From the NCBI GenBank assembly GCA_017507765.1, contig JAFWAG010000066.1:1-42797 (forward strand): a stretch of 42,797 bases of DNA, given 5' to 3'. This DNA comes from Alphaproteobacteria bacterium. Its GTDB lineage: Bacteria; Pseudomonadota; Alphaproteobacteria; CACZRW01. Below, one piece after another: positions 3,057-42,797 of this stretch. Made by a program: the position numbers and the translations under genes. Each line of letters opens with the position of its first letter. Position 1 is the first letter of the stretch. The notes beneath the pieces are model-generated. The model was given only the letters and a program-made list of their open reading frames with translations. It ran no database searches and was not told where the DNA came from.

Positions 3057-3072
3057 GTAAGATTTGGCGGAT

Positions 3073-4182
3073 ATGCTAAAGGCACTTTTTATAAACTCAA
3101 GTTCAAAAAAATGCTCTATATATCAATCAGGTAAGATGATTTTTGATTGTTTAAGACAATCAAAAAAAGTTTCCTTTGATTATATTGAAATAGATAGCGA
3201 TAACAGGTTTATCCCTGTTGGCTATGATTTCTATTTGTTTAATTATCATTATGCCACAATGGGTTGGCTTGACTTAAAGGAATTAAAAAGACACTTCAGT
3301 TACATAATGACGATAGTGCTTGAAGTCTTGCCAAATAATCCGTTTCCATTGGTTGACGATAAAGCATTTGACGCATACTTGGCAATTGATCCGACCATGG
3401 AATCAGACAATCCCAAAGTCTTTGCTTTCCCCAGACCTTTGGAAAAAACTCTTGATATAGATTTATCCGAAGAATCAGAAACACCAATTATTGGTAGTTT
3501 TGGAATGCCTACGCCCGGAAAAGGTTTTGACCTTATTATTAAGGCAATTAATAAAGAGTTTGATAAAGCAATTTTCCGGCTAAATCTGTCCAAAGCCGAT
3601 TTTGTTCCTAATTATGAGGAAATAATACAATACTATACGGACCTTTGCCGACAAACTGCGAAATCGGGTATAGAGGTTCAGGTAACTTCGGATTTTATGA
3701 CCAAAGAGGAACTAATAAAGTGGTGTGCATCAAACACCATAAATTGTTTCTTTTATGATAGGAATCAGCCGGGTTTGTCTGCAACTACAGATCAGGCAAT
3801 AACTTCGGGGCGGCCGTTACTTATAAGTGATAATCCAACATTCCGGCACATACATAAATATATAAAGCCTTATCCTGAGTGGTCTATAAAGGAAGCCATA
3901 GTAAAAACGCCTTCTATCATCAAACAAATCCAAAAAGATTGGTCGCAAGAAGCATTCGCCGCTACCTTTGACGATATGATATCAAAGCTTGAAAACGATA
4001 TTAAGAATGCTCATGCAAAAATCGAACTTAAAAAGAAAGTAAACGTTGAACCGAAATTATGCCAATATGCATTTTATCTGTTTAATTTGATTCCGTTTAT
4101 AAAAGTTAAGTTTTTTGATAAGAAAAAGAGTATTGAACTATTCGGAATACCGTTTTTAACTATAAAAATAAAAAAGAAATAA
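3073..4182 (+). CDS. GT-B fold glycosyltransferase-like protein with basic C-terminal tail
   Basis: This protein of about 369 residues starts MLKALFINSS. An in-frame TTG at 3064 is an alternative start, and neither has a strong ribosome binding site. The middle has IGSFGMPTPGKGFDLI (about residues 138-153), which matches the start of the C-terminal Rossmann domain of GT4-like GT-B enzymes. Later GLSATTDQAITSGRPLLIS resembles their donor-site helix. The N-terminal half is divergent. The C-terminus carries SIELFGIPFLTIKIKKK, closely like the tail of the GT9 enzyme at 641-1813. Donor and acceptor are unknown. It lies 16 bases after the methyltransferase in the same cluster. Confidence 0.7.
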   Translation: MLKALFINSSSKKCSIYQSGKMIFDCLRQSKKVSFDYIEIDSDNRFIPVGYDFYLFNYHYATMGWLDLKELKRHFSYIMTIVLEVLPNNPFPLVDDKAFDAYLAIDPTMESDNPKVFAFPRPLEKTLDIDLSEESETPIIGSFGMPTPGKGFDLIIKAINKEFDKAIFRLNLSKADFVPNYEEIIQYYTDLCRQTAKSGIEVQVTSDFMTKEELIKWCASNTINCFFYDRNQPGLSATTDQAITSGRPLLISDNPTFRHIHKYIKPYPEWSIKEAIVKTPSIIKQIQKDWSQEAFAATFDDMISKLENDIKNAHAKIELKKKVNVEPKLCQYAFYLFNLIPFIKVKFFDKKKSIELFGIPFLTIKIKKK

Positions 4183-37287: not shown

Positions 37288-38595
37288 TTAATAACGATAA
37301 GCGTCTGATTTAAAAGGTCCGTCAACGGAAGCCAAACCGATATATTTAGCTTGCTTTTCCGTTAATTTATCAAGCTCGATTCCCAAGTGCGGGCAATGAA
37401 GGCGGGCAACTTCTTCATCAAGCTCTTTCGGAATGGTATAGACTTTTCCTCGTTCGTATTTATTCGTATCACGATTTTTCCACAGCTCTATCTGAGCAAT
37501 CGTTTGGTTTGTAAAGGACATCGACATAACGAACGGAGGGTGTCCGGCTGCACAGCCCAGATTTACCAAGCGTCCTTCCGCAAGCAAGATTATGACTTTG
37601 CCGTTGGCAAGCTCTAATTTGTGAACTTGAGGCTTGATTTCCGTCCATTTAGCATTTTCCCGCAACCAAGCCGTATCAATTTCATTGTCGAAGTGGCCGA
37701 TGTTGCAAAGGATTACGCCGCTTTTAACGTTTGGCAGTACTCCTGGGTGAACAACATCACAGTTTCCGGTGGTCGTAACGATAATATCGGCTTTATCAAT
37801 AATATTTTCCAACTTTTTAACCGCAAAACCGGACATAGAAGCTTGAATGGCGCAAATCGGGTCAACTTCGGTAACATATACCTGCGCACCCATTCCCTTG
37901 AAGGATTGAGCGCAGCCTTTTCCTACATCACCGTATCCGCATACGACAGCGATTTTTCCGGCTACCATAGTGTTGGTTGCCCGCATAATTCCGTCCAACA
38001 TAGATTCCCGACAGCCATAGATGTTATCAAACTTTGACTTTGTAACGGCATCATTAACGTTTATCGCCGGCATCAAAAGCTTTCCTTCTTTTGCCATTTC
38101 TAACAAGCGGTGTACACCGGTTGTTGTTTCTTCGGACACGCCGATGATTTCTTTGGCTTTTTCGGGATATTTTTCGTTTACATAAGCCGTCAGGTCTCCG
38201 CCGTCGTCCAACAATAGGTTAGGGAACCATTCACCGTCTTCTGTCCACAAAGTTTTTTCGATACACCACCAATATTCTTCTTGGGTCATTCCTTTCCAAG
38301 CAAATACCGGTATACCTTTTTTGACCATAGCGGCGGCAGAGGAATCACTGGTTGAAAAGATATTGCAGGAACTCCAACGGATTTCTGCGCCCAAGTCAAC
38401 CAAAGCGTCCATAAGTCCGCAAGTTTTGATATTCATATGCAGACAGCCGGTAATTCTTGCTCCTTTTAATGGCAATTCACCTTTTGCGCGGTATTGGCGC
38501 ACCAGTTCGGTAAGTCCTGCCATTTCGGATTCGCAGAGTTCAATTTCCCGCAAACCCATGTCTGCCAAAGACATATCTTTAACTTTATAATCCAT
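37288..38595 (-). CDS. ahcY: Adenosylhomocysteinase
   Basis: AhcY splits S-adenosylhomocysteine into adenosine and homocysteine, using bound NAD, and so relieves product inhibition of methyltransferases. The 435-residue protein has the family motifs: [47 protein letters not shown] and the NAD-binding loop [16 protein letters not shown] (about residues 216-231). The C-terminus KSDAYRY matches the family KPDHYRY. A GGGGAGG ribosome binding site lies upstream of the ATG and a TTGACA-type promoter lies about 35-65 bases ahead. A terminator follows, so the gene is monocistronic. Confidence 0.98.
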
Positions 38596-38708: not shown

Positions 38709-38737
38709 TTGACAAAACAGGCAAAAAGGTTTAAAAG
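38709..38737 (+). promoter_or_regulatory. Putative promoter of the large repeat-protein gene
   Basis: TTGACA (38709-38714) is followed by a 17-base spacer and TAAAAG (38732-38737), a weak -10. It lies about 50 bases upstream of the ATG at 38788 and points away from the divergent ahcY promoter. Confidence 0.45.
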
Positions 38738-38787: not shown

Positions 38788-41700
38788 ATGAAAAGACGTA
38801 ATAACACCAAAAGCAATCAGCGAAAGACCTCAAATCCCAAAGGTGGCAAAATTCGTAAAGGCGGCAAACCGATACCGTCCGTTTCTGCTCCTAAAAAAGA
38901 AGATTTTTCCACTGTTTCTCCGTTTAATTTTGAAGCCGCCGCACCAAAGAAAGAGCCGCCAAAGCCTTCCGGATTTAAAAGCAGTTCCTATGCCCAGAAT
39001 AAACCTTCTCAGCAAAAGTATCTTGGCAAGCCGGACATCCTTCCGAACGATGATTTATATCTCTTATTAAAGAATGCGAAAACAAAGTTACAAACAGACT
39101 TATCTCCCATTCCGCCAAAGGATTGGAATCTTAAAGGTAACATTCAATTTTTAAGGATATTGCGAGCCTATCACCCCGCATCTATGGCAAGGAACGAAGT
39201 CATAGACGGCAAAGAAATACGCTATTTAACCGCCGAAATTATTATGGAGGTTTTGTTAAGAGCTCCTGACAACCGTTCTTTTATGGCTTGGGAAAAGATT
39301 GTAAGGTCAAAAATTATCAGATGCTGGATTAGTCCAGAAGAAGTAAGGATTTATCTTGATGCGCATGATAAAGGAAAGATTGTTTATACCGCGCCTTCTT
39401 TTGACATTTTGAATGCAGATTTAAGGCACGCTGCCACAACTTACTTTTTCTCCGGCAAGATAGATTATCAAAAATGGTATGACGTTACTTCGATTTTAGA
39501 CGAAGACGGTAATATGCCGATTTTATTTTCTTTAAGCGAATTGTTGGCTATCAATAATTTTTCGGCACAGAATTATATCGACAGCGGTTTGGATTATCTT
39601 GTGTACAAGGATTGGGAGAATATTCCCTCTATTTTAAGTTATGCCGATAATTACGACAGTATAAAGGAATTGCTGGCAAACGGGGACAAAAACACCGCTC
39701 AAATGCTGATAAAGCACTGGTCGGAAAATAAAGATAAAAAGGAATTAGAGGTTTTGGCCTCCTTAATTCCGGAAAAGTTCAAAGATATTGATACTGCGGA
39801 AGTCCAACTTACCAAGAAACCTTTGCCGCTTTCCGAAATGCCGGAGACCAAAGAAAAAGCACCGGAAACCAAAAAACACGTAATTAAAAAGCCAAAAGCA
39901 AACCAACCTCAGCCTAAAAAACGTATCGGTAAAAATAGACTTTTCTTTACGGACTTTTTGGGGAATATACCTGACTTTAAAAATATGTCTGTGCGGAATG
40001 GAGATATTGTTTTAGGCATGAAAGAGCTTGTTCCCCCTTTATCGGAAATCACCAAAGAACACAATCCGGAAGCATTAAGGTGTTTTTTCGCCGAAGTTCG
40101 TGCATCACATCAAATATTGCTTGCGCCGTGGATTACCTCGGCTTGGGATAAGCTTGTTTTTGAAAATGCCGAAGAAGGATTGGCAGAACTTACCATGCTT
40201 AATCGCATTTCCTCGGACTTCTTTTTCAAATACAGCAAGACTTTTACTACTTATCTTAAAATAAACAATATAAATGTTTCTGATATTGCAAATAAACTTA
40301 ACGAATATCTAAAACAAACATCAGAAGACAAAAATAAAGAAAGATATAATACAATATCAATATTAAGTAATTCATGCTCTGCAAATCATCCAAAGCTTTA
40401 TAGCCCGCTTGATTTTATTGCCAGACCATATTTACTTTTTGGTGCAAACAAGGAAAGTTTATTTATCAGTGCGGCGACAAGCTGTTTTATGCCTTCTGTA
40501 CTTTCTTTCCCCAACGATGAAAATCTGAGTGTGGTTTTGCAAGCATCATCTGCGATAGAGAACAATCTTTATATTCATTGGAATACTTTGGCATTTAACC
40601 ATATTACTTCGGGTGATAAGGATTTAATCAGCCTTGGTATAAAGGAAACCGAAGCTTTATTTGCCATGAATGAACCGCTTTCCCATAAAACGCTTGGCTT
40701 TTTGTTCAAAATTGCCCCGTTTGTTCCCATGGAAAATCAAGAAGCCGTATGCCGTTATTTGGAAGAAAACGGCTCAGATAATATATTGCCGTTTTACATT
40801 CATGCTTTTGTTTTCGGGCGTTTTCAAAAGAGCATAGCCTTTAATTCCAAAGGCAGACAGAGCCTTCCTTTTGATGCGATTGCTTTTTATAACAAAAATA
40901 AAAAGAAAAATACTAAAAGGGGCAGGCCTTCCACAAAAAATGCGGTGTCGGCTGCTGATACCGTTTCGGTTCAGACTTCCGCAGAGCCAAAATCAGTTCC
41001 GACTCCCGTGGCGACAGAAAAGGTAACCCAAAGCGTACCTACACCCAAGCCCAAACCAGCACCAAAGCCCAAAGCGGAACCAAAGCATAAAGCCGTACCA
41101 AAACCCAAAGCAGAACCAAAGCCAAAAAACAAGGTAAACACAGTCAAGCTAAAGTCTGCTTCTGTTCCGGTTGTTATCGACGCCGAAGCAGCAGGTGTAA
41201 AGCTAACCGTAAAAGATTCCGGTTTGTTTGCAGAACTTATTGAAAGGCTATATCTATCTACACGGTCAGATATAGATATCAGGGAAGATAATCTGGCGTT
41301 TTTAAAACGCAATTTCTCCACTGCTTTAGCAATAATAGCCGACAAACCTATCAGTAAAAATATCACGACAAAGAAAGTTGTTGGCGGCACTTCTCTCGCT
41401 CCTGTTCAAAAACGCCATCCTAACAGCAAGCACAATATGCCGAAGAGTGCTTATAATAGTGCTTTATTTTATACGGATTTCTTGGGCTATCCCAAATCCT
41501 TTGCTGCGTTTGCGGAGCAAGCTTCTGACCGCCTTGCGATATGCAGTGAGCTTGTGCCGGATTTAAAAGAGTTTTATTCCCAAAAAGATGAACTTATTGA
41601 TTTGTTTAACTATAGCAACAATCAAACATACAGCTTTTTGCTTTTGCCTCACCTAAACAGGGCTTTGCATAAAGTCATATCCGGAGACATTAACGAAGGT

Positions 41701-42519
41701 ATTAAGGAGCTTGGCATTTTAACCGCCGCTGACACTAATTTTGTGCAAAAGTATGTTATCCGGACGTTAAGGCAATTACCAAAGACCGACGAGGAAAAAC
41801 GTATTTTGCTGAAGCGTTTGGCAGAGGTAAAAGGCAAAGACAATCTAACCGACCAAGAAAAAACCGCTTGGCAGTTTTGTAAGGACGGAGTAGATCTTCG
41901 CCCCGGCATAGCGCAGAAGTTCTTGCTTGCAGAGTATCTTGGCAAAGAAAGAGCCTTTATGATGTTAGAGGAAGAAGACCGTCAGGACATTGTTAATCGT
42001 ATAGGTATGCACCCGTCTATGGCGGATATAAACATAGATTGTATCAAAATGTGTGATTTCCTTGACGAAGCGCAAGAGGCAGGGGAAAAGCTTTTAACCC
42101 ATTGGCACGCCGAAGCTGTCGGAGACATCATTTCCGGCGACATTAAATCCGGCGTAACTAAGTCTCGAGAGTTAATGAATATAGACTCTGAGTTTTATCG
42201 TAACACTCTTCCGATTTTACTTCGGGTGGCTTTGCGCAAAGACGACATTGGCGAAGAAATAATGGCGTATATTGAAAAACATCCGGACAGCATAGATATT
42301 CTGGAAGAGTATAAAACCGAGATAACCTATAAGCAGCAAAGCTTAAAGGCAAAAATGTCCGGAGCCGTCCCTGCCGCTCTTAAACAGAGTACGGGTATAG
42401 ACTTGGACGTTTCTCCGGCGTTAAAAGAAAGACTCGCCGATACCCAAACCCCAGACAACGGGAAAATCGCTATGGACATTTCCCCTTGCCGTGAAGGTTT
42501 TGGTAAAGAACGGGAATAA
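38788..42519 (+). CDS. Large (1243-residue) repeat protein of unknown function
   Basis: The chosen start, ATG 38788 (MKRRNNTKSNQRKTSNPKGG), has AAGGATAAGGG upstream. The ATG at 38752 has no such site. The first 70 residues are basic and disordered, as in nucleic-acid-binding tails. There is no signal peptide or membrane segment. The rest is mainly helical. Two regions open alike (LFFTDFLGNIPDF near 39940 and LFYTDFLGYPKSF near 41464) and each leads to a diverged unit of the type W/H-x5-A-x4-SGD-x3-GI-x4-L. Further copies start near 40570 and 42095. A Lys-Pro-Ala linker near 41030-41135 separates two halves. No known domain is recognised. The gene stands alone between ahcY and the glycyl-tRNA synthetase. 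Confidence 0.75.
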   Translation: MKRRNNTKSNQRKTSNPKGGKIRKGGKPIPSVSAPKKEDFSTVSPFNFEAAAPKKEPPKPSGFKSSSYAQNKPSQQKYLGKPDILPNDDLYLLLKNAKTKLQTDLSPIPPKDWNLKGNIQFLRILRAYHPASMARNEVIDGKEIRYLTAEIIMEVLLRAPDNRSFMAWEKIVRSKIIRCWISPEEVRIYLDAHDKGKIVYTAPSFDILNADLRHAATTYFFSGKIDYQKWYDVTSILDEDGNMPILFSLSELLAINNFSAQNYIDSGLDYLVYKDWENIPSILSYADNYDSIKELLANGDKNTAQMLIKHWSENKDKKELEVLASLIPEKFKDIDTAEVQLTKKPLPLSEMPETKEKAPETKKHVIKKPKANQPQPKKRIGKNRLFFTDFLGNIPDFKNMSVRNGDIVLGMKELVPPLSEITKEHNPEALRCFFAEVRASHQILLAPWITSAWDKLVFENAEEGLAELTMLNRISSDFFFKYSKTFTTYLKINNINVSDIANKLNEYLKQTSEDKNKERYNTISILSNSCSANHPKLYSPLDFIARPYLLFGANKESLFISAATSCFMPSVLSFPNDENLSVVLQASSAIENNLYIHWNTLAFNHITSGDKDLISLGIKETEALFAMNEPLSHKTLGFLFKIAPFVPMENQEAVCRYLEENGSDNILPFYIHAFVFGRFQKSIAFNSKGRQSLPFDAIAFYNKNKKKNTKRGRPSTKNAVSAADTVSVQTSAEPKSVPTPVATEKVTQSVPTPKPKPAPKPKAEPKHKAVPKPKAEPKPKNKVNTVKLKSASVPVVIDAEAAGVKLTVKDSGLFAELIERLYLSTRSDIDIREDNLAFLKRNFSTALAIIADKPISKNITTKKVVGGTSLAPVQKRHPNSKHNMPKSAYNSALFYTDFLGYPKSFAAFAEQASDRLAICSELVPDLKEFYSQKDELIDLFNYSNNQTYSFLLLPHLNRALHKVISGDINEGIKELGILTAADTNFVQKYVIRTLRQLPKTDEEKRILLKRLAEVKGKDNLTDQEKTAWQFCKDGVDLRPGIAQKFLLAEYLGKERAFMMLEEEDRQDIVNRIGMHPSMADINIDCIKMCDFLDEAQEAGEKLLTHWHAEAVGDIISGDIKSGVTKSRELMNIDSEFYRNTLPILLRVALRKDDIGEEIMAYIEKHPDSIDILEEYKTEITYKQQSLKAKMSGAVPAALKQSTGIDLDVSPALKERLADTQTPDNGKIAMDISPCREGFGKERE
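41047..41133 (+). repeat. 36-bp tandem repeat coding for a Lys-Pro linker
   Basis: Within the large repeat-protein gene, ACCAAAGCCCAAAGC (from 41061) recurs with two changes from 41097, a period of 36 bases. It encodes PKPKAEPKHKAV followed by PKPKAEPKPKNK, with a related PKPKPAPKPKAE text just upstream. Such in-frame low-complexity repeats often vary in copy number and act as flexible spacers. Confidence 0.65.
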
Positions 42520-42538: not shown

Positions 42539-42797
42539 TTATGCGAAATATTCCCGAATATAATTCGGCAAATCCGTAAGGTTTACTCTGGTTTGTTTCA
42601 TGGTATCTCTGTCACGGATAGTAACGCTTGCCGGCTCTTGTTCAATAGAGTCAAAATCAACCGTTATGCATATCGGCGTACCGACTTCGTCATGCCGACG
42701 ATAAGCCTTACCGATATTTCCGCTGTCTTCCAAAGCTACTCTGCCTATGCCGAGCTTTAACAAGTCGGTTTTAATTTTATGAGCCATGTTCATAATA
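42539..42797 (-). CDS. glyQS: Glycyl-tRNA synthetase, dimeric (eukaryote-like) type, C-terminal part
   Basis: The minus-strand frame is open to the window edge, so this is only the C-terminal 86 or so residues. They match the anticodon-binding domain of dimeric class II GlyRS: ALEDSGNIGKAYRRHDEVG, then TPICITVDFDS and VTIRDRDTMKQTRVN. The end is LPNYIREYFA. Many proteobacteria use the heterotetrameric glyQ/glyS enzyme instead. The catalytic domain lies outside the window and cannot be checked. The gene converges on the large repeat-protein gene with a gap of 19 bases. Confidence 0.85.
   Translation of the reverse strand, partial: IMNMAHKIKTDLLKLGIGRVALEDSGNIGKAYRRHDEVGTPICITVDFDSIEQEPASVTIRDRDTMKQTRVNLTDLPNYIREYFA

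Follow-up and report, generated by a model that had tools for sequence, protein, structure and literature searches.

The Gene and Its Surroundings

The window, i.e., the whole stretch of 42,797 nucleotides that was analysed, contains a solitary gene for a repeat protein of 1243 amino acids (38788–42519, + strand). This open reading frame had been picked out in an earlier, sequence-only reading of the DNA, and it proves to be a real gene: a purine-rich ribosome-binding site, AAGGATAAGGGCT, lies just 5′ of its ATG, an orthologue occupies the same place in the sister genome, G001, and the protein is under purifying selection, as described below. An alternative in-frame ATG, located 36 bases upstream of 38788, would give a repeat protein of 1255 amino acids. 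In the orthologue (L002:1492), ATA stands in place of the window ATG and no in-frame ATG is found close by. The sequence TTGACA (38709–38714, + strand), read directly, suggests a −35 element; the distance from it to the start is 79 bases in the window gene and 84 bases to the aligned start in the orthologue.

Housekeeping genes flank the repeat-protein gene on both sides. Its divergent neighbour is ahcY (adenosylhomocysteinase; 37288–38595, − strand), whose product is 94% identical in G001, and its convergent neighbour is the glycyl-tRNA synthetase gene, of which the 3′ end is present (42539–42796, − strand; named from its sequence, and the same in G001). Around the repeat-protein gene there is no operon, no partner and no conserved functional neighbour. 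Its GC content is near that of the neighbouring genes, and values of 40–46% extend across most of the window; Hepatincolaceae, with about 30% GC (PMC11724238), were set aside as a candidate lineage on this ground. Elsewhere in the window, two Pfam-negative genes (641–1813, 390 aa, and 3064–4182, 372 aa) are placed amid sugar- and methyl-transferase genes. The earlier description of the repeat protein as cytoplasmic is consistent with its hydropathy, the maximal 19-residue mean being 1.3; the start does not resemble a signal peptide, and neither a Sec signal nor a membrane segment is detected by hydropathy.

Modular Architecture of the Protein

Two blocks open with the related sequences LFFTDFLG (aa 385) and LFYTDFLG (aa 893). 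Their relationship, already noticed by eye, is one of homology according to both blastp (E 2e-10) and hhalign (probability 98.3, E 1.9e-14, 296 columns). A shifted hhalign alignment (probability 78, E 1.8e-5) places the first half of block 1 on the latter half of block 2, which means that each block is in turn a pair of units. The family was divided into ten half-blocks to define a module of ~150 amino acids. Three hallmarks characterize it, namely the head (F/L)-x3-(D/E)-(F/Y)-(L/I), the brief motif h-P-(S/P/D)-h and the core L-h-x-(H/P)-W-x3-A-x3-h-x-SGD-h-x2-G-(I/V)-x5-L.

A unit profile built solely from non-window units was used for searching the window, and it recognizes four units in the repeat protein, all on the + strand: 1A (39934–40392, aa 383–535; i-E 6.8e-15), 1B (40393–40842, aa 536–685; i-E 7.9e-21), 2A (41458–41901, aa 891–1038; i-E 3.1e-37) and 2B (41914–42354, aa 1043–1189; i-E 7.5e-29). 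They score 42–114 bits, against 8 bits for the best of 200 shuffled proteins, and a profile of the paralogues alone recovers the same four units at 4e-7 to 4e-17. The SGD triplet is present at aa 608, 965 and 1116; the first unit, 1A, has FEN-AEEG in its place, and the second, 1B, has a 3-residue insertion after it. The combination A-x5,6-SGD is observed 3 times, with 0.04 occurrences expected by shuffling. Hence, the four diverged motif units that had been proposed do exist, far beyond chance, but the unit is much longer than the motif, ~150 aa, and SGD is kept in only three of the four. The repeat borders resolve as four modules in two pairs.

The N-terminal domain probably ends in a decayed fifth copy of the module (39595–39747, + strand; aa ~270–320), which extends as far as the core's LIKHW. 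When this stretch (IPSILSY...LIKHW) is compared with hhalign, it scores 20.9 versus 10.7 ± 2.0 for column shuffles, with a maximum of 16.7 (n = 200); the HMM gives it 5.7 bits, a value equalled by ~0.5% of the shuffles. We grade this unit only as probable because the fragment was picked after the match had been seen and because the orthologue copy scores lower.

The remaining regions of the protein, all encoded on the + strand, are quite different from each other in conservation. The head (38788–39036, aa 1–83), which is Pro-rich and probably disordered to judge from its composition, has 34% identity to the orthologue. Its 20 K+R versus 5 D+E bear out the basic character assigned to it previously, and it also contains 11 P. 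Within the head, alignment and pattern search single out NPKGG-x3-KGGK (38833–38868, aa 16–27), whose only matches in three genomes are the two orthologues. Because it is kept in an otherwise poorly conserved head and is unique to this gene in those genomes, we think that its conservation points to a short motif with a specific binding role. That the head binds nucleic acid is a guess that its composition may allow; the family searches returned no known nucleic-acid-binding domain. The N-terminal domain (39037–39792, aa 84–335) is the most conserved part, with 62% identity to the orthologue, and family searches gave no match for it. Linker 1 (39793–39936, aa 336–383; 21% identity) is rich in Lys, Pro and Glu. 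The Lys-Pro linker 2 (40858–41436, aa 691–883; 24% identity), which holds 37 K+R and 20 P, separates the two blocks just as had been reported; its PKPK run is missing from the orthologue. Finally, composition and identity define a variable hydrophilic tail (42379–42516, aa 1198–1243).

Relatives and Evolution

The order was sampled by three genomes: G000, G001 of the same genus (a MAG, uncultured Alphaproteobacteria bacterium isolate E30__bin2) and G002 of another genus, which is 83% complete. In G001 the orthologue sits in the same position between ahcY and glyQS; it runs over two contigs, the end of one coming within a few residues of the other at about aa 460/462. Its identity to the window protein is 49% in the N half and 38% in the C half, with 33–55% in the repeat units and 21–24% in the linkers; other proteins have identities of 94% (AhcY), 87% (GuaA) and 94% (bisphosphatase). 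The value of dN is 0.30 in the N-terminal domain and 0.41–0.65 in the units, and dS is saturated or >1. With such a dS, dN values of 0.30–0.65 in the folded parts indicate purifying selection on a protein that is kept while changing fast.

Besides the orthologue, G001 has two paralogues detected with the profile, one of 347 aa with one unit (L017:3573–4616, +) and another of 412 aa with two units (L017:4623–5861, +). They share a reading frame and are separated by six bases; their place, between guaA and ahcY, is on the opposite side of ahcY from the repeat-protein gene; the corresponding interval in the window measures 216 bases and lacks them. The paralogues share the repeat unit with the window protein, but they have no basic head, no Lys-Pro linkers and no match to the N-terminal domain. 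The existence of proteins with one and two units shows that the module is a building block. In the same G001 contig, a glycine-rich protein (L017:2–808, +) is encoded next to the bisphosphatase gene, and a polysaccharide deacetylase is found at the counterpart site of the window.

No family member was found in G002, and no credible relatives turned up among 385 genomes from the class and 399 from the phylum, or in viral contigs, phages and plasmids. The phylum-wide profile matches were weak (E 0.016–0.1). The weak class-wide matches of the block profile that we examined, named by reading their sequences, were gyrA, ptsP and an unrelated 308-aa protein, and they were discarded as chance matches in helical stretches. 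Within the class and phylum sampled, the relatives recognizable by sequence are confined to the sister genome, namely the orthologue and the two shorter paralogues.

Family Searches and Fold

Searches of Pfam, NCBIfam, PHROGs, PADLOC and PDB sequences returned only noise or matches to low-complexity linkers; those to Pfam PARP, NCBIfam TonB and PDB 9qm4 were rejected, as all of them fall within the low-complexity Lys/Pro linker. Remote homology search with the unit and block profiles likewise gave no confident match to a known repeat family. As no search returned a known family, the earlier statement that the protein is without a known domain holds. AlphaFold2 with shallow alignments produced two models that are nearly all-helical, with mean pLDDT of 56 and 50. 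Where the models are confident, they consist entirely of helix and place hairpins at the core motif (pLDDT about 70–90); the N-terminal domain is poorly modelled. Foldseek gave no significant fold match with either model, and among its weak matches are designed helical repeats as well as solenoids of the TPR and HEAT type. Thus, structure prediction points to an all-alpha block, although with low confidence and no significant fold match. We class the module as a new helical-repeat family outside any named family, among the alpha-helical repeat scaffolds.

Interpretation

In our opinion, the repeat protein is a lineage-specific, cytoplasmic, multivalent alpha-helical repeat scaffold, to which we assign a probability of roughly 45%. 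That it could be a new scaffold had been suggested before, and a repeat scaffold is indeed the best-supported reading, although its function is deduced from the layout: four ~150-aa modules in two pairs, with basic low-complexity linkers and a conserved N-terminal domain ahead. Each module would be a small alpha-hairpin bundle, its helicity being shown in part by the models. The core hairpin, roughly LL-x-HW-x3-A-x3-I-x-SGD-I-x2-G-I-x5-L, may offer a surface for binding peptides or proteins; with such a surface on each core hairpin, the tethered module pairs would hold several partners close to one another. Through its NPKGG-x3-KGGK motif and basic character, the head might dock the assembly onto an acidic partner, possibly nucleic acid or a membrane, and modules that change fast, compared with a steadier N-terminal domain, would fit partners that vary themselves. 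The fixed chromosomal place of the gene, its own candidate promoter and its presence in both species of the genus also support a scaffold, as do the purifying selection and the paralogues with one and two units. Against it stand the low overall confidence of the models, with no significant fold match, and the lack of an operon, a partner or a conserved functional neighbour.

Secretion has to be weighed as well, because all three genomes of the order encode VirB4 together with a VirD4-type coupling protein and G000 has a row of VirB genes, VirB8-VirB9-giant VirB10-VirB11, after which come a second VirB8, VirB4 and VirB2. The repeat protein might then be a signal-peptide-less substrate (effector) of a VirB/VirD4-type system that is passed to another cell, where its modules would bind target proteins; we find this, the main alternative to a scaffold, somewhat unlikely. 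Small genome, lineage restriction, fast evolution and local multiplication are usual for secretion effectors, and the small genomes (1.2–1.4 Mb), the restricted distribution, the speed of change and the multiplied genes found here agree with it, as does the hydropathy, which shows neither a Sec signal nor a membrane segment. However, lineage restriction, speed, multiplication and a missing signal peptide are compatible with an effector but not specific to it, and the association with a host is deduced from genome size. Of the four proteins in the family, three have a charged, K/R-rich C-terminus, but the last 20 residues of the window protein have a net charge of 0 (orthologue +1, paralogues +2). 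The genes scanned in the VirB region of G000 include no relaxase; even so, the machine might equally serve DNA transfer. Moreover, the protein has no known effector domain, its conserved part is the N-terminal domain, and G002 has the secretion machine without any member of the repeat family.

Type IV secretion effectors with repeats occur in Rickettsiales, Legionella and Coxiella. The repeat protein would be like them in being large, lineage-specific, fast-evolving, devoid of a signal peptide and encoded in a genome with VirB4/VirD4, but it differs in that neither its repeat type nor any effector domain in it is known, and its export is putative. A more far-reaching version, which we regard as improbable, is that the module would represent a new alpha-helical repeat fold class restricted to one alphaproteobacterial genus. 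Its multi-copy family, evolving fast beside ahcY, would consist of secreted proteins that interact with a host and leave the cell via a type IV machine with a giant VirB10.

The secretion genes have features of their own. The giant VirB10/TrbI-type protein of 2831 aa (L041:3015–11510, −, equivalent to G000:C14:75014–83509) contains 19 beta-flower stretches (PF21785) and DUF3659, and is reminiscent of CagY. Adjoining the VirB region there are genes for a PilN-family type IVB pilus secretin and a PilP-like protein (L038:14082–18197, +). Between VirB8 and VirB4, five consecutive genes (L038:995–7406, −; 756, 380, 451, 300 and 235 aa), mostly with signal-peptide-like starts and with no Pfam or NCBIfam match, are perhaps lineage-specific parts of the secretion system.

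The protein could also be a highly diverged TPR/Sel1-like solenoid whose TPRs drifted beyond profile recognition, which we judge quite improbable. The repeats had been called unlike HEAT, TPR or Sel1, and by score this stands. No TPR or Sel1 profile was matched by hmmscan against Pfam with the whole protein, the C-terminal half or single units, up to E 1–10; the unit profile scored the TPR, Sel1, HEAT, PPR and ankyrin consensus like shuffled sequence; a TPR signature scan did no better than shuffles; and Pfam gave no match to HEAT, PPR, ankyrin or ARM either, being the sole test for ARM. By eye, though, the core hairpin is TPR-like, since W-x3-A-x6-GD-x3-G falls on the TPR helix-turn-helix positions (W4, A8, G15-D16), and among PDB sequences the unit profile matches best, although not significantly (E 0.1), the TPR region of CNOT10, in the TPR register. 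Like a TPR such as that of the CNOT10 N-terminal region, the module has an all-helical hairpin with an A-x6-G-(D/N) turn in register and would serve as a protein-binding scaffold. Yet its period is ~150 residues with one such hairpin each, instead of the 34–36 residues of TPR/Sel1, and it has an extra head motif, (F/L)-x3-D-(F/Y)-(L/I), and an h-P-(S/P/D) motif. With the register seen by eye and a non-significant CNOT10 match, what the module resembles is probably an alpha-hairpin of a general type.

The 62% identity of the N-terminal domain, clearly the highest in the protein, and the conserved KGG motif of the basic head could be explained if this domain were an unrecognised enzyme or nucleic-acid-binding domain that the repeats merely position, with the head binding RNA or DNA. 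We consider this very unlikely: family searches returned no match for the domain, it is poorly modelled, and its last part is probably a decayed repeat unit. A phage or mobile-element origin, which an orphan, fast-evolving gene could bring to mind, is mostly refuted by the lack of relatives in viral contigs, phages and plasmids, by the fixed chromosomal place in both species and by a GC content near that of the neighbours.

A repeat family absent from all the searched libraries is now defined, and its clear unit borders and three hallmark motifs make it recognisable elsewhere. If the repeat protein is retained inside the cell, it would be a large lineage-specific scaffold maintained in a small genome. 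If it is exported, it would offer the first lead to how an unstudied order with small genomes interacts with other cells.
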